Shown here: positions 3,001 through 49,351 of the stretch, one piece after another
Layout of the letters: every line of letters begins with the position of its first letter
Position numbering within the stretch: position 1 is the first letter of the stretch
Source of the DNA: Actinomycetospora sp. NBRC 106378
GTDB lineage: Bacteria > Actinomycetota > Actinomycetes > Mycobacteriales > Pseudonocardiaceae
Reading direction: 5' to 3'
Length of the DNA: 64,000 nucleotides
Assembly (NCBI RefSeq): GCF_030269685.1
Contig: NZ_BSTT01000005.1
Location: 124,001 to 188,000, forward strand
Made by a program: the position numbers and the translations under genes
Notes under the pieces: generated by a model
Seen by the model: the letters and a program-made list of their open reading frames with translations, nothing else
Databases searched by the model: none
What the model was told of the DNA's origin: nothing

Positions 3001-6000
3001 ACCTACGGCCAGGACCGCGACGAGCCGCTGCTGCTCGGCTCGGTCAAGTCGAACCTGGGCCACACGCAAGCCGCCGCGGGTGTCGCCGGCGTGATCAAGA
3101 TGCTGCTCGCCATGCGGCACGGCGCCCTCCCGGCGTCGTTGCACGCGGCCACGGCCTCCTCGCACGTCGACTGGACCGCGGGCGACGTCGCGCTGCTCAC
3201 GGAGACGACCCCGTGGCCCGAGACCGGCCGCCCGCGCCGCGCCGGGGTGTCGTCGTTCGGCATCAGCGGCACGAACGCCCACGTGGTCCTCGAGCAGCCC
3301 GTCCCGGAGCCGCCGGCGCCCGCCGTCGCGGACGGCCCCGTCGGCGCGGTGCCCTGGGTGCTCTCGGCCGCGTCCCCGACCTCGCTGACCGACCAGGCCG
3401 CCCGGCTGCTCGATGCGGTCGAGCACGGCGGCCTGCTCGACGACGGCCGCACCCCGGCCGACGTCGCCCGCGCGCTCGCCGACACCCGCGCCCGCCTCGA
3501 CCACCGGGCCGTGGTGCTCGTCGACGACCGGGAGACCGCGACCGCCGCCCTGGCCGAGCTCGTGGCGGAGACGGACGCGGCTGCGGTCACCGGCCGGGCC
3601 CGTCCGGGTCGCCTGGCCGTCCTGTTCTCGGGTCAGGGGTCGCAGCGGCTGGGGATGGGGCGTGAGCTCCACGCCCGGTTCCCGGTGTTCGCGGCGGCGT
3701 TCGACGCGGTGTGTGCCGGGTTCTCCGGTCTGCTGGATCGGCCGTTGGGCGAGGTGGTGTGGGGTTCGGACCCGGAGTTGCTGGATGAGACGGGGTGGGC
3801 GCAGCCGGCGTTGTTCGCGCTGGAGGTGGCGCTGTTCCGGTTGGTGGAGTCGTGGGGGGTGGCCCCGGATGTGCTGGTGGGGCATTCGATCGGGGAGATC
3901 GCGGCGGCGCATGTGGCGGGGGTGTTCTCGCTGCCCGATGCGTGTCGTCTGGTGGCGGCGCGGGCGTCGTTGATGCAGGCCCTGCCCAAGGGTGGGGCGA
4001 TGGTGGCGTTGGAGGCGACCGAGGACGAGGTGGCGCCGCTGCTGGCCGGTGAGGTGTCGATCGCGGCGGTGAACGGGCCCCGCTCGGTCGTGGTGTCCGG
4101 TGCCGCGGACGCGGTTGCTGCGGTGGTGGGCCGGTTCGAGGGTCGGCGGTCGACGAGTCTGCGGGTCTCGCACGCGTTCCACTCGCCGTTGATGGAGCCG
4201 ATGCTGGCGGAGTTCGCCGTCGTGGCGGGGTCGCTGGAGTACCGGGCCCCGCAGCTGGCGGTGGTGTCGACGGTGACCGGTGGTGAGGCGGATCTGACCG
4301 ACCCGGGCTATTGGGTGGAGCAGGTCCGGGCCACGGTGCGCTTCGCCGATGCGGTGGGGACGCTGTCGTCCCGGGGCGTCCGGCGGTTCGTCGAGCTCGG
4401 CCCGGACGCCACCCTCGCCGGGCTCGTCGGGCAGACGGCCGAGCCGGACGCCGCCGTCGTCGCGACCCTGCGTCCCGACACCGAGGAGCCGCGCTCCCTG
4501 CTGGCGGCCCTGGCCGCGCTGCACGTCGACGGCGAGCCGATCGACTGGACCGCCGTCCTCACGGGGTCGGGCGCGCGTCGGGTGCCGCTGCCGACCTACG
4601 CCTTCGCGCGGCAGTGGTTCTGGCCGACGGTCTCGGCGGCGCGCGGTGACGTGCGCGCGGCGGGCCTCGGTTCGCCGGGGCACCCGTTGCTGGGAGCCGC
4701 GGTGGAGCTGGCGTCCGGGGGCGGGTCGGTGCTGACCGGCCGGCTGTCGCTGGCGAGCACGCCGTGGCTGGGGGAACACCGGGTGATGGGCCAGGTCGTG
4801 GTCCCCGGGACCGCGCTGCTGGAGATGGTGCTGCGTTCCGGCGACGAGGTCGGAGCCGCCCGGGTGGAGGAGCTGACGCTGGCCGCACCGCTGGTGCTGC
4901 CCGAGACCGGCGCGGTCCGCGTCCAGGTCGTCGTCGAACCCGCCGGTGGGACCACCCGTCGCGTCGCGGTGTACTCCTGCCCGGACGACGCGGCCGAGCA
5001 CGGCTGGACCCGGCACGCCGAGGGCGTCCTCGCCCCGGACGTCGCCGCGGCGCCGGGCTTCGACACCACCGTCTGGCCGCCCCGTGACGCCGAGCCGCTC
5101 GACGTCCTCGGGTGCTACGACGCCTTCGCCGACGCCGGCTTCGCCTACGGACCGCTCTTCGCGGGCCTGCGCGCAGCCTGGCGGGACGGCGACGTCCACT
5201 ACGCCGAGGTCGCCCTGCCCGAGTCGACCGGGGACACCGCGGGAGGCTTCGGCCTGCATCCCGCCCTCGCCGACGCGGCCCTGCACGCCTCTCTGCTCAC
5301 CGCCCTGGACCACGGCGACGCCACCGCGGTGCCGTTCGGCTGGCACGGGGTCACCCTCGCGGCCGCCGGGGCGACGACCCTGCGGGTGCGGCTGGCCCCG
5401 GCCGGCGCGGACGCGCTCGCGATCGACGCGGTCGACCCCGCGGGAGCACCGGTCTGGCACGTCGACGCTCTGGAGACCCGGGCACTGACCCCCGAGCACC
5501 TCGCGGGCCGGGACCCCGTGCTGCGCGATGCCCTGTTCGTCGTCGAGCACGCCCCGCTCGCGGCCGCCGACCTCCCGGCCCCGGCCGACGTCGCCGTCCT
5601 CGGGACCGACGGGCTCGGCGTCGCGAGCACGCTGACCGCGCTGGAGGTGGCCGTCTCGACGTGGTCCGACGTCGCGGCCCTCGCCGCGGCCGTGGCCGAC
5701 GGGTCGACGCCTCCCGAGGCCGTCCTCCTGCCGGTGGGACCCGGGGGTGACGACCCCACGGCCGCCACCACCGCCGTGCTGGCCGTCCTGCAGGCGTGGC
5801 TGGCGCACGACGCGCTCGCCGGGATCCGGCTGCACGTCGTGACCCGCGGCGCCCCGGTCGATCCCGTTGCCGCGGCGGTCGGGGGACTGGTCCGGGCCGC
5901 CGCGACCGAGCACCCGGGCACCCTCGCCCTGGTCGACCTCGACGGCTCCGCCGCGTCGGGCGCCGCCCTGCTCCCGGCGCTGCGCCGGGACGAGCCGGAG

Positions 6001-39234: not shown

Positions 39235-40290
39235 CTATTCGGTTCTGGTGATCTTGTGCAGGCCGCCCGGCGCGTCGACGTCGACCCCGCGGGCCACCGC
39301 CAGCCGCCAGGCCAGCGTCTGCGCGGGCACGACGGCGACGATCGGGGAGACCAGGGGCGGGGTTCCGGACGGCAGGTCGGGTCCGATCACGACGACGGGT
39401 GCGCCGCGCTCCCGGAGCTCGTCGCGCAGCTCGAGCACCGAGCGGCTGCCGGCCTCGCCGTCGGGTGCGACGAGCAGGGTCGGCGTGCCGGGTCCGACCG
39501 CGCCGATCGGGCCGTGCCGCAGATCGGCGGGGGAGAAGGGCGCGACGAGGGAACCGGTCAGTTCCGTGAGCTTCAGGGCGGCCTCGTGGGCGGTGGCGAG
39601 GTTGACCCCGCGACCCACGGTCACCCCGCGCCAGGACGCGCCGAACACGTCGACGGCCTCGTCCACGTCGACCGCCAGCGCCTGCTCGACGAGGGCCGGG
39701 ACGCGGTCGAGGTCCGCGAGCAGTGCCTCGGCCGCCGGTTCGGGGGCGAGGCCGGCCGCGACCACGGCGAGGGCGGCGAGCGACGCGGTGTACGTGCCGG
39801 TCGCGGCGACCGACCGCTCCTCGTCGACGTGCAGCGGCAGCACCAGGTCGGCCTGCGCGGCGAGGTCGGAGCCGGGGTCGTTCGTGACGGCGAGCGTGGG
39901 CGCGCCCCGTTCCCGGGCGTCGCGGAGCACCGCCACGATGTCGGGCGAGCTGCCGGACTGCGAGATCCCGACGACGAGCCGCCGGTGGACGACGGGGGAG
40001 GCCCCGTAGGTGGTGACGAGGCTCGGCGTGGCGAGCGTGACCTCCCGCTCGGCGACCAGCGGGACGAGGTACTGCGCGTAGCGCGCGGCGTTGTCCGAGC
40101 TGCCCCGCGCGGCGAGGACGACCCCGCAGGCCGCCGCGGCGAGCTCGCGCACGGCCGCGGCGGCCGGACCCGCCGTCGTCAGGAAGGTACGGAGGGCGTC
40201 GGGCTGCGCATGCAGCTCGCGCTCGAGCCTCGATGGTCGAGCTCCCCTGTCGGCGTGCTCCCCTGGATGCTCCGTCTCCTGCGGGCTCAC
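39235..40290 (-). CDS. SIS-domain sugar-phosphate isomerase/deaminase (NagB-II/GlmS-like)
   Basis: 351 aa from GTG 40290, sharing GTGA with the nagA stop. Two SIS domains: first with ACGVVLAARGSSDNAARYAQY and GISQSGSSPDIV, second around LPSGTPPLVSPIVAVV. C-terminal residues GGLHKITRTE match the K-x-T-x-T end of this family. There is no glutaminase domain, so the likely reaction is GlcN-6-P to fructose-6-P plus ammonia (NagB-II), directly after NagA in the pathway. The first about 20 residues are variable. Confidence 0.88.
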   Translation of the reverse strand: MSPQETEHPGEHADRGARPSRLERELHAQPDALRTFLTTAGPAAAAVRELAAAACGVVLAARGSSDNAARYAQYLVPLVAEREVTLATPSLVTTYGASPVVHRRLVVGISQSGSSPDIVAVLRDARERGAPTLAVTNDPGSDLAAQADLVLPLHVDEERSVAATGTYTASLAALAVVAAGLAPEPAAEALLADLDRVPALVEQALAVDVDEAVDVFGASWRGVTVGRGVNLATAHEAALKLTELTGSLVAPFSPADLRHGPIGAVGPGTPTLLVAPDGEAGSRSVLELRDELRERGAPVVVIGPDLPSGTPPLVSPIVAVVPAQTLAWRLAVARGVDVDAPGGLHKITRTE

Positions 40291-41408
40291 CGGTCGACCT
40301 CCTCGCCACCGAGCAGCACCCGGGTGACCTGGAGCCCGTCGTCGAGGACGGTCACGTCGGCGACCCCACCGGGTCGCAGCACGCCGAGGTCGGGGTGCGG
40401 GCGGTGCCCCGGACCGACCAGCCGCGCCGGGGTGGCGGTCGCCGCCACGAGGGCGTCGGCGAGGTCGATCCCGGCGGCCACCGCGACGCGCACGCAGCCC
40501 GCGAGGGTCGCCGCACTGCCGGCGAGGGTGCCGTCGGGGTTGCGGACCGCCCCGTCGGCGAGGGTCAGCTCGACGTCGCCGAGCCGGAAGGTGCCGTGGG
40601 TCCGGCCCAGGCCGGCGGCGGCCGTCGCGTCGGTGATGAGCGCCCAGCGCCCGCGGGCCGCGGCCGCGACGACGCGCAGCACGTCGGGGTCGACGTGGTG
40701 GCCGTCCGCGATCACCGTGACGACGGTGCCCGGGTGGGCCAGCGCGGCCGCGGCGAGGCCGGGGGCGCGGTGGTCGAATCCGGACATCGCGTTGAACAGG
40801 TGCGTCGCGCCGGTGATCCCGGCGTCGAACCCGGCGCGCGCGTCGGCGGCGGAGGCGTCGCTGTGCCCGGCCATCACGGTCACCCCCGCCTGCAGGGCGG
40901 CCGCGAGCACGGCGTGCGCGCCCGGGAGTTCCGGGGCGATCGTGGTGATCGCGACCGCACCCGCCGTCCGGAACGCCTCGAACGACGCCGGGTCGGGCGC
41001 GCGCAGGAACTCCGGCGGGTGCGTGCCGGGCCGCGCGGGGGAGAGGAACGGGCCCTCGACGTGGGCGCCGAGCAGGCGCGCACCGTGGGGCGAGGGGCGC
41101 GCGGAGTCGAGCGTGCGCAGGGCGGTCGTGGTCGTGTCGGGTGCGGCGGTGATGACGGTCGGCGCGACCGCCGTGACCCCGTCGCGGGCGAGGGCGGCGC
41201 GGAGGGCGTGGACGTCGGCAAGGTCGTCGGCGGCGGTGAGGTCGACGCCCGCGTAGCCGTTGCACTGCACGTCGACGAGTCCCGGCACGGCGACGGCACC
41301 GCCTGCGGCGGGGGGCAGCCCGACCGCCGCGACGCGGCCGTCGACCACCGCCACGTCCCCGCGGTGCAGCACGCCGCCGACGAGCGCGGCGGAGACCCCG
41401 AGCCTCAT
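40287..41408 (-). CDS. nagA: N-acetylglucosamine-6-phosphate deacetylase
   Basis: 373 aa from ATG 41408, overlapping the anmK stop by ATGA. Amidohydrolase features: PGLVDVQCNGYAGVD, HVEGPFLSP (metal/substrate), GHSDA, THLFNAM, ADGHHVDP and ITDATAAAG with the catalytic Asp. It removes acetate from GlcNAc-6-P, the product of both GlcNAc kinase and MurQ. It is placed between AnmK and the SIS isomerase in a translationally coupled operon. Confidence 0.95.
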   Translation of the reverse strand: MRLGVSAALVGGVLHRGDVAVVDGRVAAVGLPPAAGGAVAVPGLVDVQCNGYAGVDLTAADDLADVHALRAALARDGVTAVAPTVITAAPDTTTTALRTLDSARPSPHGARLLGAHVEGPFLSPARPGTHPPEFLRAPDPASFEAFRTAGAVAITTIAPELPGAHAVLAAALQAGVTVMAGHSDASAADARAGFDAGITGATHLFNAMSGFDHRAPGLAAAALAHPGTVVTVIADGHHVDPDVLRVVAAAARGRWALITDATAAAGLGRTHGTFRLGDVELTLADGAVRNPDGTLAGSAATLAGCVRVAVAAGIDLADALVAATATPARLVGPGHRPHPDLGVLRPGGVADVTVLDDGLQVTRVLLGGEEVDR

Positions 41409-42538
41409 CGGACGATCTCCAGCGCGTGGACGGCGGGCACGGGCTCGGGCAGGCGCAGCGGGCGGTGCCCGGTGCTGAGGCGGCCCAGGACCCGGGGCGT
41501 GGCCGAGCCGGTGGCGCCGGGCAGCACGCCGGGTACGCCGTGCCAGGTCAGGGCGCCGAGCAGGGCGGTCAGGACGGCCTCCTTCGCGTCGGACGGCAGG
41601 CCCCGCTCGTCCGCGGACACGAGCGGGACCGGATCGAGCGCCGCGGCGAGCGCCGCCCGCAGCGTCGGGTTCGCCATCCCGCCGCCCGAGCCGACGACCT
41701 CGACCGCCCCGTGCGCGCGGCACGCGGCCGCGACGGTCCGGGCGGTCAGCGCGACGAGCGTGGCGGCCAGGTCGGGCGAGGAGATCCCGGGCGCGGCGTG
41801 CGCGACCGCGGCGTCGAGGGCCGGGGCGGTGAATCGCTCCCGCCCGGTGGTCTTGGGCGGCGGCGCGGCGTAGTAGGGCTCGGCGAGGAGGTGCCCGAGC
41901 AGGACCGTGTCGACGGTGCCGGACGCCGCCAGCGCGCCGTCGACGTCGTACCCGGCGCCGGTGGCCCGCTGCGCGACGACGTCGAGCCAGCAGTTGGCCG
42001 GGCCCGTGTCGAACGCGGTGAGCGCGCCCGGCGCGACCACCGTGACGTTCGCGATCCCGCCCAGGTTCAGCGCGATGCGGGTCTCGGCGCCCGCCAGCCA
42101 GAGGGCGTCCAGCGTGCTCGCCAGGGGTGCGCCGTGCCCGCCCGCGGCGATATCGGTGGAGCGCAGGTCGCTGACCACCGGCAGCCCGGTCGACTCGGCG
42201 ATCCACGCGGGCTGGCCGAGCTGCAGACCGCCGGTGGCCCGGCCGCCCTCGATGCCGTGGAACACGGTCTGGCCCAGCCACGCGACGAGGTCGGCGTCGT
42301 GCCCGGTCGCCGCCAGCGCGGCGGCCTGCCCGACGGCGTGGTCGAGCGCCGCGATCTCGCCGACCGTCGTCGTCGCGGGCGGCAGCACGGCCAGGAGCCG
42401 CTCCTGCAGCCCGGCCGGCCAGTCGACGGCCGCGTGGTGGCGCACCGCGAGCCTCGTCGTCGGCCCGACCTCGACGTCGCAGACCGCCACGTCCAGCCCG
42501 TCCGCCGAGGTCCCCGACAGCATCCCGACGACGATCAC
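41405..42538 (-). CDS. anmK: Anhydro-N-acetylmuramic acid kinase
   Basis: 377 aa from GTG 42538, seven bases after the kinase-MurQ stop. Signature motifs: GMLSGTSADGLDVAV at the start, LGQTVFHG, the GQPAWIAE loop, LNLGGIANVTV, FDTGPANCWLD, GSGGGMANPTL and LPSDAKEAVLTALLG. It cleaves the 1,6-anhydro ring of anhydroMurNAc and phosphorylates it to MurNAc-6-P, the substrate of MurQ encoded immediately upstream. Confidence 0.95.
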   Translation of the reverse strand: MIVVGMLSGTSADGLDVAVCDVEVGPTTRLAVRHHAAVDWPAGLQERLLAVLPPATTTVGEIAALDHAVGQAAALAATGHDADLVAWLGQTVFHGIEGGRATGGLQLGQPAWIAESTGLPVVSDLRSTDIAAGGHGAPLASTLDALWLAGAETRIALNLGGIANVTVVAPGALTAFDTGPANCWLDVVAQRATGAGYDVDGALAASGTVDTVLLGHLLAEPYYAAPPPKTTGRERFTAPALDAAVAHAAPGISSPDLAATLVALTARTVAAACRAHGAVEVVGSGGGMANPTLRAALAAALDPVPLVSADERGLPSDAKEAVLTALLGALTWHGVPGVLPGATGSATPRVLGRLSTGHRPLRLPEPVPAVHALEIVR

Positions 42539-42545
42539 CGCGCGA

Positions 42546-44354
42546 TCACCGACCCACCGCCGCGCGCACCGAGCCCGCCCTCGTCAGGCGATCGCGCGCG
42601 GCGGGGGAGTCCAGGCCCGCGAGCAGCGCCACGACCGCCGCGGCCACGTCGTCGCCCGCCGCGACCAGCGCCGCCCGGGCGGTGTCCTCGTCGGTCCCCG
42701 TCGCGTCGCGCACGATGCGCTCCGCGCGGCGGCGCAGCTTCGCGTTCGTCACCCGCACCCCGACCATCCACGGGCCGTACGTCGCACCCGCGCGCACCAT
42801 CGCCGCGGTCGTCAGGGTGTTCAGGGCGATCTTCTGCGCGGTGCCGGCCGCCAGGCGCGTGGAGCCCGCGAGCACCTCCGGGCCGGTGACCAGCTCGACG
42901 GCGACGTCGGCGAGGTCGGCCACGGGGCTGCCGGTCGCGTTCACCACGGCGACGGTGGTCGCCCCGCGCTCCCGCGCCGCGGTCAGCGCGCCGAGCACGT
43001 AGGGGGTGCGCCCGGAGGCGGCGACGCCGACCACGACGTCGCCCGGCCCGACCCCGGCGTCGTCGACGTCGGCCCGCCCGGCCACGTCGTCGTCCTCGGC
43101 GCCCTCGACCGCCGCGTCCGCCGCGTCGCGACCGCCCGCCAGCAGCGCGATCGCCCGCGCCGGGTCGAGGCCGAACGTCGGCGGCAGCTCGGCCGCGTCC
43201 TGCGTCGCGAGGCGGCCCGAGGTGCCCGCCCCGACGTAGACGAGCCGCCCGTGGGCGCGGAATGCCGCGCCGAGCAGGTCGGCGGCGCGCGCGAGCCGGT
43301 CGCTCGCGGCGGCGACGGCCCGGGGCGCGGCGCTCTGCCCGTCGACCAGCCGCGCGACGAGGTCCGGGGTCGCCAGGGCGTCGAGGTCCTCCGAGCCCGG
43401 ACGGACGGCCTCGGTCGGGAGCCGGTCGGTGTCGGCGGCGGGCCCGGTCGCCTCGGCCCGTTCCCGACGCCGGGTCACGCTCGCCTCGTGCGCGGTGGTC
43501 ACGTCGGCCGCGAGGGTGAGCAGGCCGTCGAGGGCGTCGCCCTGCGGGTCGTGCAGCGTCAGCCCGGCGGCCCGGAGCCGGTCGGCCAGGGGTGCGGCGA
43601 GTCCGCCGACGAGGGCCACCCCTCCCGGTGGCAGGAAAGCGTCGTTGCTGGCGTCCAGTGGCAGGGAAGGCGCATCGTCGGCCGCCGCCCGCACCGTCGC
43701 CACCAGCTCGGCCACGGCCGCGTCGACGATCCTCCCGGCCACGGCGTCCCCGTCCTCCGCCGCCGCGAGCACGGCCGGCGCGAAGGCGGCCAGCTCGGCG
43801 GGCGTGGTCGGTCGTCCGCCGAGCACCGCGTCGGCCGGGTCGGTCAGGGCCGTCGCCGGACCAGCTCCCTCGAGCGCCCGCAGCGCCGCTCGGAGACCCT
43901 GCTGCCCGATCGACGCGCCGCCTCCGGTGTCGCCCAGCAGCAGCCCGTGACCGTCGACGCGGCGCACCGTGCCGCGCGCGTCCACCCCGAGCGCGACCGC
44001 CCCGGTCCCGACCGCCAGCACTACCCCCGCCGCGTGCCCGCCGAACACCCCGACGTGCCAGGCGACGACGTCCGAGGTCACGGCCACCGCCTCCGGCGCC
44101 CGACCCGACCACCCCGTCGTCAGGAGCTCGGCGACCTCGGCGGCCGCGTCGGGCGACGTCAACGCACCCGGGACACCCAGCGCCAGCGTCCAGCTCTCCC
44201 CGGGCGGTGACCCGAGGGCCGCGCGCACCACCGCGGCCACCGCCGGGGCACCGCCGGCGTCGCCGAGCCCAGCACCGGTCGTCGTCGAGGAGCGGTGGCC
44301 GTCGACGGCGACGCGGGCGCCGGAGCGGCCCAGGTCGACCGCGACGACGCTCAC
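42546..44354 (-). CDS. murQ: Fusion of a BadF-type GlcNAc/MurNAc kinase and MurQ etherase
   Basis: 602 aa from GTG 44354, sharing GTGA with the GntR stop. Residues 1 to about 285: sugar kinase of the BadF/BcrA ATPase type (VDLGRSGARVAVDG, LAVGTGAVALGVD, GLLLGDTGGGASIG). Residues about 305-602: MurQ (LPTEAVRPGSEDLDAL, VYVGAGTSGRLATQDAAELP, GVAASGRTPYVLGAL, TNAKLRRRAERIV). MurQ hydrolyses the lactyl ether of MurNAc-6-P to GlcNAc-6-P and lactate. No stop or internal ribosome site separates the parts, so one chain should phosphorylate MurNAc (like clostridial MurK) or GlcNAc and then cleave the ether. A short repeat-derived insertion lies in the kinase (43629-43669). Confidence 0.92.
   Translation of the reverse strand: MSVVAVDLGRSGARVAVDGHRSSTTTGAGLGDAGGAPAVAAVVRAALGSPPGESWTLALGVPGALTSPDAAAEVAELLTTGWSGRAPEAVAVTSDVVAWHVGVFGGHAAGVVLAVGTGAVALGVDARGTVRRVDGHGLLLGDTGGGASIGQQGLRAALRALEGAGPATALTDPADAVLGGRPTTPAELAAFAPAVLAAAEDGDAVAGRIVDAAVAELVATVRAAADDAPSLPLDASNDAFLPPGGVALVGGLAAPLADRLRAAGLTLHDPQGDALDGLLTLAADVTTAHEASVTRRRERAEATGPAADTDRLPTEAVRPGSEDLDALATPDLVARLVDGQSAAPRAVAAASDRLARAADLLGAAFRAHGRLVYVGAGTSGRLATQDAAELPPTFGLDPARAIALLAGGRDAADAAVEGAEDDDVAGRADVDDAGVGPGDVVVGVAASGRTPYVLGALTAARERGATTVAVVNATGSPVADLADVAVELVTGPEVLAGSTRLAAGTAQKIALNTLTTAAMVRAGATYGPWMVGVRVTNAKLRRRAERIVRDATGTDEDTARAALVAAGDDVAAAVVALLAGLDSPAARDRLTRAGSVRAAVGR
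43629..43669. repeat. Short direct repeat TGGCAGG(A/G)AAG inserted in frame in the kinase domain
   Basis: Two copies (43629-43639, 43659-43669), 30 bases apart, encode on the minus strand the odd segment LPLDASNDAFLPPGG just before a kinase strand (VALVGG). It looks like a small inserted repeat element; I recall similar SNDAFLP-type insertions in other Pseudonocardiales proteins but cannot check. Confidence 0.5.
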
Positions 44355-45103
44355 GGGGCGTCCGCCGAGACCAGCGTGCCGACGGTGGCTGCCTCTCCCG
44401 GCGGGATGATGTCCATCTCGATGAGGTACCGGTCGCCCCGGGCGAACGACTCGACCCGCTCGACGACCTCGCCGCGGTGGTCGCGCGAGGTGCGCACGAA
44501 GCGCAGCGCGGGGGAGCCGGGGGGCACCCCGAGCAGCTCGGCGTCCTTCGCCGCGAGCACCACCGGCGCCACGGACTGCGTCCCGGAACGGATCCGCCGG
44601 TCGAAGCGCTCGGCGAGGATCTCGTAGTAGGAGGAGGGGCCGTCGAGGTCGTCGCCGGTCAGGCCGGGCACGCGGGCGGCCGGGACGTGGAGGGTCTCGA
44701 GGGTCATGGGCTCGTCGTCGGCGAGCCGCACGCGACACACCCGCAGCACCGGCTCGCCCCCGGGCATCTCGAGGCGGGCGGCGAGGTCGGTGTCCGCGAC
44801 GACCGTGTCCCACCACAGCAGGCGCGAGGACGGCTCCAGCCCACGGCGGCGCATGTCATCGCCGAACGAGGTGGCCATGAGCGGCTGCGCGACGGCGGGT
44901 CGGCGCACGAAGGTGCCCGCACCGTGGCGGCGCTCGACGATCCGCCGTGCCATGAGCTCCTCGAGCGCTTTGCGCACCGTCGCCCGGGACACACCGAAAC
45001 GGGTGGACAGGTCCCGTTCGCCTGGAAGCATGGCGCCCGGCCCGAGTTCGGCGCACAACGCCGCGACCTTGGCGCCCACCTCCGTCGATCGTGTCACCGC
45101 CAC
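44351..45103 (-). CDS. GntR/HutC-family repressor of the amino-sugar operon
   Basis: 250 aa from GTG 45103 (GTG 45097 also possible). The frame stays open to 45139, but that extension would cover the operator-like site at 45110-45121. N-terminal GntR winged helix (LPGERDLSTRFGVSRATVRKALEELMARRIVERRHGAGTFV), then a HutC/UTRA effector domain (about 85-240; LRVCRVRLADDEPMTLE, RFVRTSRDHRGEVVERVESF). Close in type to DasR/NagR, which sense GlcN-6-P or GlcNAc-6-P. It is the first gene of the operon and is coupled to the kinase-MurQ fusion, so it probably controls itself and everything down to the symporter. Confidence 0.9.
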   Translation of the reverse strand: MAVTRSTEVGAKVAALCAELGPGAMLPGERDLSTRFGVSRATVRKALEELMARRIVERRHGAGTFVRRPAVAQPLMATSFGDDMRRRGLEPSSRLLWWDTVVADTDLAARLEMPGGEPVLRVCRVRLADDEPMTLETLHVPAARVPGLTGDDLDGPSSYYEILAERFDRRIRSGTQSVAPVVLAAKDAELLGVPPGSPALRFVRTSRDHRGEVVERVESFARGDRYLIEMDIIPPGEAATVGTLVSADAP

Positions 45104-45826: not shown

Positions 45827-46435
45827 ATGACGGACACCACCTGCCACATGTCGGTCTCGCTCGACGGCTTCGCGGCCGGCCCGGACCAGGCGCGCGACAA
45901 CCCGCTGGGCACGCGCGGGGTCGAGCTGCACGGCTGGCACATCGGCGACCCGCGGGCCACCGAGGCCGACGAGACCGCGACGGGCTGGCTCATGCGTCCG
46001 CGCGGCGCCTACGTCATGGGTCGCAACATGTTCGGCCCGGTCCGGGGGGAGTGGGACGAGGACTGGCGCGGCTGGTGGGGCGACGAGCCGCCGTACCACG
46101 CGCCGGTGTTCGTCCTGACCCACCACGCGCACGACCCGATCGAGATGGAGGGCGGCACGACCTTCCACTTCGTCACCGACGGGTTCGACGCCGCCTACGC
46201 GCAGGCCGTCGAGGCGGCCGGTGACCTCGGTGTCGACATCGCCGGAGGCGCCTCGACGGTGCAGCAGGCGCTGCGAGCCGGGGTGATCGACGAGTTCACC
46301 CTCGACATCGCCCCGACGCTGCTGGGCGCGGGGGAGCGGCTCCTCGACGGCGTCGACACCTTCGACTTCGAGCCCGTCGAGGTCCTGCACTCGCCGCTGA
46401 GCACCCACATCCGCTACCGCCGGAGCCGGAGCTGA
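45827..46435 (+). CDS. Dihydrofolate-reductase-like (RibD C-terminal family) protein
   Basis: 202 aa from ATG 45827 with GGAGG upstream. Features of the YwjB/RibD-C group: MSVSLDGFAAGPDQ near the start, YVMGRNMFGPVRGEW, PVFVLTHHAHDPI, DIAGGASTVQQALRAGVIDEFTLDIAP. These NADPH-binding proteins are widely present but mostly uncharacterised as enzymes. It ends one base before the convergent lipoprotein gene. Confidence 0.9.
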   Translation: MTDTTCHMSVSLDGFAAGPDQARDNPLGTRGVELHGWHIGDPRATEADETATGWLMRPRGAYVMGRNMFGPVRGEWDEDWRGWWGDEPPYHAPVFVLTHHAHDPIEMEGGTTFHFVTDGFDAAYAQAVEAAGDLGVDIAGGASTVQQALRAGVIDEFTLDIAPTLLGAGERLLDGVDTFDFEPVEVLHSPLSTHIRYRRSRS

Positions 46436-46436
46436 C

Positions 46437-47219
46437 TCACCCCAGCCAGGGCCTCGCGGCCCGCCCCCACGTCCCGTCGGCCAGGGCCGTCGTGAGCCAC
46501 CGGTTCACGGTGTCGACGAAGGCCGGGTCGCCGGGCGGGACCAGGTACGCCTTCTGCGAGTGGTCGAACGGCGCGTCCGGGTGCTCCGCGCACAGCACAC
46601 CCGGACGGGCCGCCGCCTGCCACCGCGCCTCGATCGCGTCGGTGATCATCAGGTCGGTGCGGCCGTCGGCGACGGTGTCGTGGATCGTGTTGTTGTCCGG
46701 GTAGGGCACCACGGTGGCGGCCTGCAGCCGGCCCCGGACGAACCGCTCGTTGGTCCCGCCCGGGTTCACCACCACCCGCAGGCCCGGCCGGTCGATCTGC
46801 GCCAGGGTCGCGTACCGCCCGAGGTCGGCGCACCGGACGATCGGGGTCTTGCCGTCCTGCAGGTAGGGCACGGTGAAGGTCGCCCGCGCCGCCCGGTCGG
46901 CGGTCACCGAGATGCCCCCGACGGCGAGGTCGCACCGTCCGCCGGTGACGTCGTCGAGCAGCGTCGACCAGGTCGTCGGCACCATCGTGACCCGCGCGCC
47001 GAGCCGGGCCGCGAGGTCGTGGGCCAGGTCGACGTCGATGCCGGACCAGGCGCCGGACGCGTCCCGGTAGGTCAGCGGCCGGTAGTCGCCGGTGGAGCAG
47101 ACCCGCAGCTCGTGGGTCGCCGCGATTCGGTCGGTCGGGGTGTCACCTCCGCCCGAGCACGCCGTCAGCACACCCAGCAGGGCCACGAGGACCAGCACCG
47201 TCCGCCGCACGGCCGGCAC
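46437..47219 (-). CDS. Cyclohexadienyl/arogenate dehydratase-like lipoprotein (PheC family)
   Basis: 260 aa from GTG 47219, directly after the stop of the upstream membrane-protein gene (GTG 47210 possible). A lipoprotein signal ends LTAC with Cys21. The mature protein has the periplasmic binding-protein-3 fold and strong PheC-type motifs: STGDYRPLTYRD, AVGGISVTADRA, PYLQDGKTPI, NPGGTNERFV, DGRTDLMITDAIEARWQ, FDHSQKAYLV. PheC enzymes convert prephenate or arogenate to phenylpyruvate or phenylalanine outside the cytoplasm. An ordinary amino-acid-binding role is the alternative, but no permease or ATPase is adjacent. Confidence 0.82.
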   Translation of the reverse strand: MPAVRRTVLVLVALLGVLTACSGGGDTPTDRIAATHELRVCSTGDYRPLTYRDASGAWSGIDVDLAHDLAARLGARVTMVPTTWSTLLDDVTGGRCDLAVGGISVTADRAARATFTVPYLQDGKTPIVRCADLGRYATLAQIDRPGLRVVVNPGGTNERFVRGRLQAATVVPYPDNNTIHDTVADGRTDLMITDAIEARWQAAARPGVLCAEHPDAPFDHSQKAYLVPPGDPAFVDTVNRWLTTALADGTWGRAARPWLG

Positions 47220-47220
47220 C

Positions 47221-47652
47221 CTAGCCCGACGCGGCGAGCGCCATCCCCGCCGCGACCACCCCGCCCGCGGTCCACGCGACGACGCGGTACCAGTTGGTGC
47301 GCACCAGCCGTGCGAGGACCTCGTCGTCGTAGCCGGCCGACAACCGCTGGTGGCAGGGCACCGAGACCAGCACGGTGACCGCCACCGTCGCCGCCCCGCA
47401 CACCCCGGCCAGCGCCGCGGCCCAGAACGGGACGCCGTCGGGGCGCCACACGAGCAGCACCGCACAGGTCACGCCCTGCACCGCCCACGGCGCGGACACC
47501 GTCCACGCCATGAGGCGGGTGTGCCGGTCGTGCCAGGCCGACCACGCGGCCCGGTCGATCCCGGCGAACCCGGGGTAGACGAGCACCTGGACCACCCAGA
47601 CGAGCCCGACGCAGAACCAGACGGCGGCGGTGTGGACGACGAGGAGCGGCAC
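47221..47652 (-). CDS. Four-helix integral membrane protein, unknown function
   Basis: 143 aa from GTG 47652. Four hydrophobic segments (about 5-27, 48-66, 75-98, 122-140) carry conserved-looking polar residues (VQVLVYPGFAGIDRAAWSAWHDRHTRLM; CHQRLSAGYDDEVLARLVRTNWYRV), reminiscent of DUF1772-like proteins. It precedes the PheC-like lipoprotein gene with a one-base gap, so the two are likely translated together. Confidence 0.8.
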   Translation of the reverse strand: MPLLVVHTAAVWFCVGLVWVVQVLVYPGFAGIDRAAWSAWHDRHTRLMAWTVSAPWAVQGVTCAVLLVWRPDGVPFWAAALAGVCGAATVAVTVLVSVPCHQRLSAGYDDEVLARLVRTNWYRVVAWTAGGVVAAGMALAASG

Positions 47653-47672: not shown

Positions 47673-48614
47673 TCAGCCCTCCGAGAGCCGCCGTCCGAGA
47701 CCCCGTCGCCGGTAGGTCCGGGTCCGCAGCAGCAGCACCACGGCGGCCGCGACCACGATCCCGACGAGGTTGACCGCCAGCTGCGCGAGCGAGGACAGGC
47801 AGCGCGACCAGTCCCCGAGGGTGGCGGCGACGGCCGCGTAGCCCGCCGCGGGCACGGTGGTCACCGAGATGAACACCCCCACGAGGGCGGCCGACTTCGC
47901 CGACGTCATCGCGAGCATCCCCGCCGCCCCGGCGAGCAGCGCGACGATGAGCGAGAACGGTCCGACCTGGTAGATGAAGTCGACCTGGTCGGCGCTCTCC
48001 AGCGGGCTCACGGTGACGAGGCCCGCGGCCTCCGCCACCACGGCGGCGACGGCGGTCACGACGAGCGCGAGCGGGAAGCCGACACCGAGAGCACGCAGCG
48101 CGCGTCCCGCGAGGTCGCCCCGACGACCGACGAGACCGACCGCCAACGCCGCGAGCGGCCCGAACTCCGGGCCGACCACCATCGCCCCGACGATCGTGAC
48201 GGGGGAGTTGGTGACGACGCCGATCGCCGCGAGCAGGCAGGCGATGATCAGCAGCGCGAGGAAGCTCACCGAGGGCCGCGCCTCCTCGCCGGTCCGGCCG
48301 ACCAGCTCGTCCCAGACGAGGGCGTCCGACCCGAGCCCGGGGGCCGCCTCCTCGGCACGGTCGGCCGCGTCGGACAGGACCGTCTCCAGCGGTTCGACCG
48401 TGATCCCGCCGACCCGGTCCACGCCCCGGTCCGAGAGCGCCGCGAGGACGCCGTCGACGGCCTCCCGGGCGACGTCGGCGGCCACCAGGTCACCCTCCGG
48501 TGCGACCGCGGCCCCGCGGGTGAGCGTCAGGTGCGCGGTCCCGGGCGTCGCGCGCAGGCAGTCGACGACCTCGTCGGTCCGGTCCGGGGGGCACACCACC
48601 CTGACGTGCAGCAC
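47673..48614 (-). CDS. DUF389 membrane protein
   Basis: 313 aa from GTG 48614, no clear ribosome site. N-terminal about 120 residues are soluble and alpha/beta (VLHVRVVCPPDRTDEVVDCLRA). Then come six membrane helices with the DUF389 signature (VSFLALLIIACLLAAIGVVTNSPVTIVGAMVVGPEFGPLAALAVG). The family (TIGR00341-like) is widespread in actinobacteria with no agreed function. Confidence 0.9.
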   Translation of the reverse strand: MLHVRVVCPPDRTDEVVDCLRATPGTAHLTLTRGAAVAPEGDLVAADVAREAVDGVLAALSDRGVDRVGGITVEPLETVLSDAADRAEEAAPGLGSDALVWDELVGRTGEEARPSVSFLALLIIACLLAAIGVVTNSPVTIVGAMVVGPEFGPLAALAVGLVGRRGDLAGRALRALGVGFPLALVVTAVAAVVAEAAGLVTVSPLESADQVDFIYQVGPFSLIVALLAGAAGMLAMTSAKSAALVGVFISVTTVPAAGYAAVAATLGDWSRCLSSLAQLAVNLVGIVVAAAVVLLLRTRTYRRRGLGRRLSEG

Positions 48615-48643: not shown

Positions 48644-49351
48644 TCAGGCCCCGAGCCGGGCCGACAGGTCGGCGGCCGCCTCCACCGTCGCGGCCACGAT
48701 CTCGGGCAGCGCCGGGCGCACCCGGCCGACCGGGCCGGAGACGTTGATGGCCGCGACCACACCGCCGTGCACGTCGCGCACCGGGGCGGACGCGCCCGCG
48801 AGGCGGCGGTCCAGCTCGCCGTCGACCACCGCGTGCCCGTCGCCGAGGGTGCGCCGGGCGATCGCGGGGTCGAGCCCGGCGGCGCCCAACCGACGGACCA
48901 GCACGGCCTCGTCGCGGAAGGCGAGCAGCACCCGGCCGGCCGAGCTGACCTCGACCGGGACGTCGGAGACGTCGAACGCGACCCGCGGCGGTGACCCGTC
49001 CCCGGCCACCGTCAGCACCGTCGCGACGGCGTCGCCGTGCAGCCGGCAGAGGTGCGCGCCGACGCCCAACCGCGCGGCGAGCACCGTCAGCACCCGCCCC
49101 GCCGTCCGGACCAGCCGCGCCTCGGTGGTGCGGGCGGCGAAGGCGTAGAGCCGCCACCCGAGCGCGTACCGCCGGGTGCGGGCGTCGCGCTCGACGAGGC
49201 CCTCCGCGGCGAGGGCGGCGAGGGCGCGCGACACCTGGCTCTCGGTCCGTCCGGTCAGCGCCGCCAGCCGGGCCACGCCCAGGCCGCCGGCCTGTGCCTC
49301 GGGTGCGGTGAGGGCGTCGAGCAGGTCGACGTCGCGTCGCAGCCCCTCCAC
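48644..49351 (-). CDS. IclR-family regulator
   Basis: 235 aa from GTG 49351. N-terminal winged helix (DLLDALTAPEAQAGGLGVARLAALTGRTESQVSRALAALAAEGLV), then the IclR effector domain (LGVGAHLCRLHGDAVATVLTV, VSSAGRVLLAF, DVHGGVVAAINVSGPV). It is divergent from an enolase-superfamily gene and an iron alcohol dehydrogenase gene, which it probably regulates in response to a sugar acid or aromatic metabolite. A palindrome lies in the 85-base spacer. Confidence 0.92.
   Translation of the reverse strand: MEGLRRDVDLLDALTAPEAQAGGLGVARLAALTGRTESQVSRALAALAAEGLVERDARTRRYALGWRLYAFAARTTEARLVRTAGRVLTVLAARLGVGAHLCRLHGDAVATVLTVAGDGSPPRVAFDVSDVPVEVSSAGRVLLAFRDEAVLVRRLGAAGLDPAIARRTLGDGHAVVDGELDRRLAGASAPVRDVHGGVVAAINVSGPVGRVRPALPEIVAATVEAAADLSARLGA

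Follow-up and report, generated by a model that had tools for sequence, protein, structure and literature searches.

Among the closest described relatives of the protein considered here is the cyclohexadienyl dehydratase (CDT, or PheC) of Pseudomonas aeruginosa, PaCDT (PDB 3kbr, 5hpq). PaCDT is exported and has strictly conserved disulfide-forming cysteines, and nine active-site residues are named in the accessible part of its description: Tyr22, Trp60, Lys100, Asn128, Thr132, Asn133, Asn152, Thr169, and Glu173 (PMC10520331). In the AncCDT lineage a Tyr177Gln step lets Glu173 take its productive rotamer, AncCDT-3 having Tyr, and a C-terminal extension is linked to the closing of PaCDT (PMC7683729, accessible part). 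An exported mutase, PheC, and perhaps an aminotransferase make up the "hidden overflow pathway" of P. aeruginosa. CDT and mutase also occur as exported CM-CDT and CDT-CM fusions, which the accessible part of the same report gives for only nine beta- and gammaproteobacterial species (PMC10520331). Turnover numbers of the known CDTs lie at about 4-30 per s (PMC10520331, PMC7683729).

We analyzed a CDT-like gene in a stretch of 64,000 nucleotides from the genome of Actinomycetospora, a soil actinobacterium; the stretch is here called the window. The encoded protein resembles PaCDT in fold, active site, predicted export, and probable binding-protein origin. The identity is 48-49% (49.1% over 226 residues for the homologue of P. 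aeruginosa PA7). Whereas PaCDT has an ordinary signal peptide, the window protein has a lipoprotein signal; it also has an extra Cys17/Cys72 pair, lacks the C-terminal extension, its last residues being WLG, and comes from an actinobacterial host. Since the extension is absent, a weaker affinity than that of PaCDT would not surprise. The protein is 51% identical to the CDT domain of the fusion JbCDTCM. As with the CDT-CM fusions, an exported-type mutase with shared site residues and a cytoplasmic dehydratase are encoded besides (PMC10520331, accessible part); unlike them, the actinobacterial CDT and mutase are two separate, unlinked genes with an export signal each. Mutase and CDT are also separate within one genome in the P. 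aeruginosa overflow pathway, which differs in its host and in that a lipid tether would hold the actinobacterial enzyme at the membrane. The features at the locus were as follows.

45827-46435, convergent with the CDT gene: RibD_C-type reductase gene
46437..47210, minus strand: CDT (PheC-like) coding sequence, GTG start, 257 residues, Cys18
46617..46643, minus strand: TDAIEARWQ motif, equivalents of PaCDT Thr169, Glu173 (general acid), and Gln177
46746..46766, minus strand: NPGGTNE motif, equivalents of PaCDT Asn128, Thr132, and Asn133
46839..46856, minus strand: DGKTPI motif, its Lys equivalent to PaCDT Lys100
47157..47168, minus strand: lipobox L-T-A-C (VLTA-C), Cys codon at 47157-47159
47160..47210, minus strand: lipoprotein-type signal peptide of 17 residues counted from the 47210 start, from direct reading of the translation and pattern matches
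47221..47652, minus strand: membrane protein of 143 residues, four hydrophobic stretches, weak resemblance to PF08592; its place next to CDT is not conserved
47673..48614, minus strand: DUF389 membrane protein, encoded upstream and co-directional
48644-49351, minus strand: IclR-type regulator, upstream and in the same direction

The gene caller had chosen a second possible start, an in-frame GTG further upstream at 47219 that gives 260 residues. The orthologues in three other Actinomycetospora genomes (85-90% identity) begin at the place of 47210, with ATG in G005 and G017 and GTG in A. soli. The start at 47210 is therefore favored and 47219 is less likely. With a GC content by codon position of 0.72/0.56/0.97, matches of up to 275 bits in the PDB, and these orthologues, the gene is far from chance. 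The first-pass annotation had named three PheC motifs, PYLQDGKTPI, NPGGTNE, and TDAIEARWQ, together with a lipobox, and all of them are present in the translation. The N-terminus reads VRRTVLVLVALLGVLTA-C and is followed by a binding-protein-like domain. Counted from 47210, it fits both a Prosite-style and a stricter Gram-positive lipoprotein pattern, and all lipobox calls given here are pattern-based. By sequence, the window gene encodes an exported CDT with a predicted lipid anchor in an actinobacterium.

Signals and cysteines were compared in an alignment of 112 rows, some of which are the same gene fetched twice, with the numbering anchored on the NPGGTNE motif of PaCDT. The strict Gram-positive pattern was found in every row of the 98% clade that holds the four Actinomycetospora CDTs, the other seven rows being Pseudonocardia-type and including P. 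ammonioxydans; across the whole alignment it was found in 22 of the 112 rows. The broader Prosite-like rule fitted 36 of 55 examined Pseudonocardiaceae CDTs. Most CDTs that failed the lipobox pattern have ordinary-looking signal peptides on reading, so that export would seem to be the rule, with lipid anchoring as an option taken in some lineages. Cys17 and Cys72 were both present in 108 rows and both absent in four, and as these four form one clade the loss was perhaps a single event. Cys106 and Cys185 were both present in 110 rows and both absent in two. The PA7 protein has only these last two cysteines in its aligned part, and 106/185 was therefore taken as the PaCDT disulfide pair; Cys17/Cys72 is predicted to be a second disulfide. 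In neither pair does one cysteine occur without the other, which fits an oxidizing, extracytoplasmic site. An exported PheC had at first been regarded as an oddity. The export signal and the lipobox are indeed present, but export is normal in the family (PMC10520331, accessible part).

The IclR-type regulator, the DUF389 protein, the four-helix membrane protein, and CDT are encoded in a co-directional run, a candidate single transcript. The stop codon of the membrane protein gene ends 10 bases before the CDT start at 47210 (1 base before 47219). Compared with Pfam, the membrane protein gave nothing over the cut-off, the nearest family, Anthrone_oxy (PF08592; cut-off 27.3 bits), scoring 9.6 bits. 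The first-pass annotation had described CDT as coupled to this protein rather than to ABC transporter genes. The two genes do adjoin in the window genome and in G005, but not in the other two of the four Actinomycetospora genomes with CDT: a three-gene cluster lies between them in A. soli and a DUF389 gene in G017. The coupling therefore says little, and the operon was rejected as a functional clue to CDT because the adjacency is not conserved. The A. soli insert (L035:1869-5826), absent from this place in the window, consists of three oppositely directed genes, for a large protein, a lipoprotein-like protein, and an ABC ATPase-like protein. It looks ABC-transporter-like on reading, the ATPase alone being matched by an ABC ATPase query.

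No permease gene was found among the window neighbors scanned. When two amino-acid ABC permeases of this genome were used as queries (E 1e-5) against 80 CDT loci, with flanks of up to 6 kb, none of the called genes matched. With an ABC ATPase query, eight loci gave one matching gene each, at 35% identity or less, and these matches are taken as unrelated transporters. No telling neighbor was found among the 40 most widespread neighbor clusters of the 80 loci. The neighbor sets that recurred in actinobacteria either were confined to particular lineages or belonged to large, generic families (short-chain dehydrogenase, protein kinase, GntR, and ABC ATPase, named by reading). In three Amycolatopsis loci (L044, L045, and L050, ~5880-5900) the CDT start overlaps the end of the upstream gene by 1 to 4 bases; this gene looks like a nucleotidyltransferase by reading, and translational coupling is possible there. 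Elsewhere in the window, a minus-strand run at 40287-44992 includes a GntR-type regulator and is conserved in A. soli. Its other genes, named by reading, encode a kinase-MurQ-like fusion, an AnmK-like protein, and a NagA-like protein, and the run looks like amino-sugar recycling.

CDT was found in four of the 18 Actinomycetospora genomes, A. soli among them. Scoring the six best candidates per genome, we found CDT homologues in 109 of 390 genomes of the family Pseudonocardiaceae (E 1e-30), while three of 396 genomes drawn evenly across the phylum, the window genome included, had CDT when the seven best candidates were scored (E 1e-60). CDT had been called unusual for an actinobacterium, which is borne out across the phylum but not within its own family. 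Among the best 80 of at least 597 places with CDT relatives, the named genomes were Pseudonocardia, Saccharopolyspora, Amycolatopsis, Crossiella, Streptomyces, Mycobacteriaceae, and a few other actinobacteria, followed by Burkholderiaceae, Pseudomonas, and others.

A CDT tree of 102 rows was rooted at its midpoint with no outgroup, and gives no direction of transfer. In it, Actinomycetospora lies among Pseudonocardia-type rows in the 98% clade, which has 11 rows, all of the strict-pattern lipoprotein type. The 57 rows from Pseudonocardiaceae and Mycobacteriaceae form a 97% group, outside of which are two long-branched rows from another family of the order (L116 and L117). The proteobacterial rows and one row labeled Opitutae form a 96% group. 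A recent transfer from a P. aeruginosa-like donor was rejected, since Actinomycetospora is inside the Pseudonocardia-type clade and the proteobacteria are apart under the midpoint root. The contig of the Opitutae row is labeled as an uncultured Opitutae MAG and encodes a CDT-mutase fusion of 423 residues (L080:5896-7164, plus strand), with a match of 490 bits to the Janthinobacterium fusion 8cq4 that spans residues 8-421. Misbinning of the MAG is possible, since this CDT groups with the proteobacteria.

The window genome encodes a separate PheA of cytoplasmic type, whose prephenate dehydratase domain scores 159.6 bits. CDT is therefore unlikely to be the housekeeping enzyme, and CDT as a replacement for a missing PheA was rejected. 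A cytoplasmic-type chorismate mutase (TIGR01808, over the cut-off) is also encoded, as is a second mutase of the exported AroQ-gamma class (TIGR01806, 96 bits against a cut-off of 74.15):

Contig C3 of the window genome (G000), ~511660-512226 (L119:1387-1953), a contig other than that of CDT: AroQ-gamma chorismate mutase

The window CDT stands alone in its chain and is not part of a fusion. The AroQ-gamma mutase has 188 residues and an N-terminal signal (MTRRLVLLAVLALLACCAGCG...) that is lipoprotein-like, with an awkward LLACCAGC stretch at the lipobox call. An SMP-30-like repeat protein and a sensor-kinase-like protein, named by reading, are encoded one on each side of it. The mutase is a relative of the exported MtCM type (81 bits) and differs from MtCM at five of 10 site residues (I67V, Q76V, T105S, E106K, and E109Q). 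The last four, Val76, Ser105, Lys106, and Gln109, are as in the CDT-CM fusions, where the set is connected with tighter substrate binding (residue lists in the accessible part of PMC10520331). The set was found in 13 of 18 mutase sequences from genomes without CDT and in 21 of 51 from genomes with CDT, and several lipoprotein-type Pseudonocardia mutases have Thr106. This signature thus has no special link to CDT and was rejected as a marker of partnership. New here is that the window genome also encodes the preceding enzyme, as an exported-type, lipoprotein-like AroQ-gamma mutase.

We consider it probable that CDT is a membrane-tethered, extracytoplasmic enzyme that acts after the exported AroQ-gamma mutase, from chorismate through prephenate to phenylpyruvate. 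The alternative that survives best, though we regard it as unlikely, is that the lipid-anchored, exported CDT works alone on environmental or leaked prephenate or arogenate, with no functional tie to the mutase. A detectable exported mutase is missing in 22 of the 109 CDT genomes, Actinomycetospora G017 among them, as a solitary CDT would have it; the remaining 87 do carry one, compared with 83 of the 281 genomes without CDT. For four genera the Mantel-Haenszel odds ratio was 12.2 (p 1.7e-8), with kinship within genera ignored and the limits of g10 and g35 taken from the order of genome handles. Genomes with both genes, CDT only, mutase only, and neither numbered 3, 1, 1, and 13 in Actinomycetospora (g1), where the mutase is thus present in three of four CDT genomes against one of 14 others. 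The numbers were 32, 2, 37, and 8 in g10 (p 0.17 alone), 15, 8, 2, and 37 in g30, and 20, 1, 0, and 1 in g35. The trend was reversed in the g22-g23 span (1, 3, 7, and 4; p 0.28).

Since close relatives are not independent, rpoB trees were built. In genus g30 the tree held 58 of 62 genomes, G310, G315, G316, and G320 being dropped as they had no rpoB match at the threshold. On average, 2.6 independent pairs had the mutase going with CDT and 0.0 had it going against CDT (median p 0.25); the dropped G310 has a mutase without CDT and counts against a partnership. A tree of 136 rows comprised these 58 and 78 of 80 further genomes, hand-chosen and enriched where either gene varies; dropped from the 80 were G146 (no rpoB match, both genes) and G196 (partial match, mutase only). 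Over 200 random pairings, the mutase went with CDT in 6.6 pairs, against 1.9 (median p 0.18), and the other way round the numbers were 6.5 and 1.3 (median p 0.125). These few independent pairs lean to co-gain or co-loss, and their direction fits a CDT-mutase partnership, but the association was not significant after correction for rpoB phylogeny, the events being too few to show a partnership. In five genomes (G130, G152, G093, G157, and G105) the distance between the rpoB match and one exported-mutase copy is ~2.6 to 7.8 kb. Also in keeping with a CDT working alone, no mutase was found in the fetched flanks of 79 of the 80 CDT loci; the exception is the fused protein of L080.

Of the 87 genomes with both genes, 50 were used to compare the form of anchoring, with one mutase copy each: the full 18 from g1 and g30 and 32 of the remaining 69. 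A lipoprotein-type CDT accompanied 13 of 14 lipoprotein-type mutases against 21 of 36 mutases failing the lipoprotein rule (Fisher p 0.02, related genomes). The one exception among the 14, G154, rests on an implausible start codon. Many of the 21 come from Saccharopolyspora, where CDT is anchored and the mutase signal is ordinary. In G005, A. soli (G009), and G270 the rule missed mutases that look lipoprotein-like, and it therefore errs in both directions. Because of this pairing we tentatively suggest, as a possibility we would not rate at even odds, that in Actinomycetospora and a Pseudonocardia clade outer-face lipoproteins catalyze the two steps that lead from chorismate to phenylpyruvate, as a surface-tethered module that would capture leaked or foreign chorismate.

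The first-pass annotation had proposed aligning the catalytic residues with PheC, and in this alignment the active site was complete, with no catalytic residue missing. All nine listed PaCDT residues are present in the window CDT and in 111 of the 112 rows, the window row included; the sole exception, L061, has Phe at position 60. The second-shell residue Gln177 is kept in the window CDT and in 110 of 112 rows. The window protein is a member of the CDT/PheC family, and enzymatic activity is predicted. At a second-shell site, position 156, it has His, as do six of the 112 rows in all, where 105 have Phe. This exchange, and the description of PaCDT-type enzymes as acting on both prephenate and arogenate, would suit a dehydratase for another cyclohexadienyl substrate (arogenate only, or a specialized metabolite) in a niche pathway. 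We find such a role doubtful, as the nine listed residues are all as in PaCDT and no biosynthetic cluster was apparent among the neighbors scanned.

With phmmer against the PDB, the window protein had its top matches at 274.8 bits to AncCDT-5, a reconstructed enzyme, at 248.1 bits to the fusion of CDT and mutase 8cq4, and at 238.9 bits to PaCDT. Lower scores were obtained for the binding proteins AncCDT-1, a reconstructed non-enzymatic precursor (140.8 bits), 5kkw (89.3 bits), and 3k4u (80.4 bits); 5kkw is the binding protein SAR11_1068, though its PDB entry bears the name of the enzyme. In sequence the window protein is thus nearer to CDTs than to binding proteins. An AlphaFold2 model built from 16 family sequences had a pLDDT of 94.5, and its three best Foldseek matches were AncCDT-5 and PaCDT (6wup and 5hpq; TM 0.90-0.91), indicating the PaCDT fold. 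That the protein is still a solute-binding protein (for phenylpyruvate, an amino acid, or another ligand) serving a distant ABC transporter or a sensor is very improbable and was rejected. In its favor, the Pfam family (PF00497) and the fold are those of binding proteins, many of which match the model at query TM 0.7-0.86, and binding proteins of Gram-positive bacteria are usually anchored through a lipobox. Against it, the protein scores far better against CDTs, its CDT active site is complete with Glu173 and Gln177 included, the two binding-protein paralogues found in the genome are only 29-30% identical to it and lack NPGGTNE, and a permease gene was found neither among the window neighbors scanned nor, with two permease queries, among the called genes of the 80 loci.

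For a tethered CDT acting after the mutase, the following course can be proposed. CDT, an enzyme that evolved from an amino-acid-binding protein, would be exported and held by its lipobox cysteine on the outside of the cytoplasmic membrane. The exported AroQ-gamma mutase would act upstream, so that chorismate outside the cytoplasm feeds the route; we infer that this chorismate would come from leakage from the cell or from lysed neighbors. The two-lobed CDT would close on prephenate (or L-arogenate), and by the chemistry of the family the Glu173 equivalent would be the general acid, and the ring hydroxyl would be lost together with decarboxylation. Phenylpyruvate (or L-phenylalanine) would then be released, and phenylpyruvate could be retrieved by the cell and transaminated, or serve as a cue.

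Altogether, the chemistry of the window CDT is ordinary, its place uncommon, and its mutase partner plausible. The best reading of CDT and mutase is as an actinobacterial counterpart of the P. aeruginosa overflow pair. A literature search by title and abstract, with subscription papers mostly outside its scope, returned no description of an actinobacterial or lipoprotein CDT. While the enzyme family is known, the predicted lipid-anchored form, in a genome with an exported type of the preceding enzyme as well, appears to be a variant that has not been described. The reasons for which bacteria export enzymes of the shikimate pathway into a space without an evident substrate are discussed for P. 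aeruginosa and the fusion enzymes, and the sensing of lysed neighbors is proposed as the purpose of the latter (PMC10520331, accessible part). By analogy, the actinobacterial route may serve overflow recovery or the sensing of lysed neighbors. The Pseudonocardiaceae offer a natural comparison, with patchy, separate, and partly lipid-anchored versions of both enzymes. As the single genus Actinomycetospora holds genomes with both, either, or neither gene, the question is open to study with mutants and extracellular metabolites. If export is confirmed, exported CDTs would not be confined to Gram-negative bacteria.
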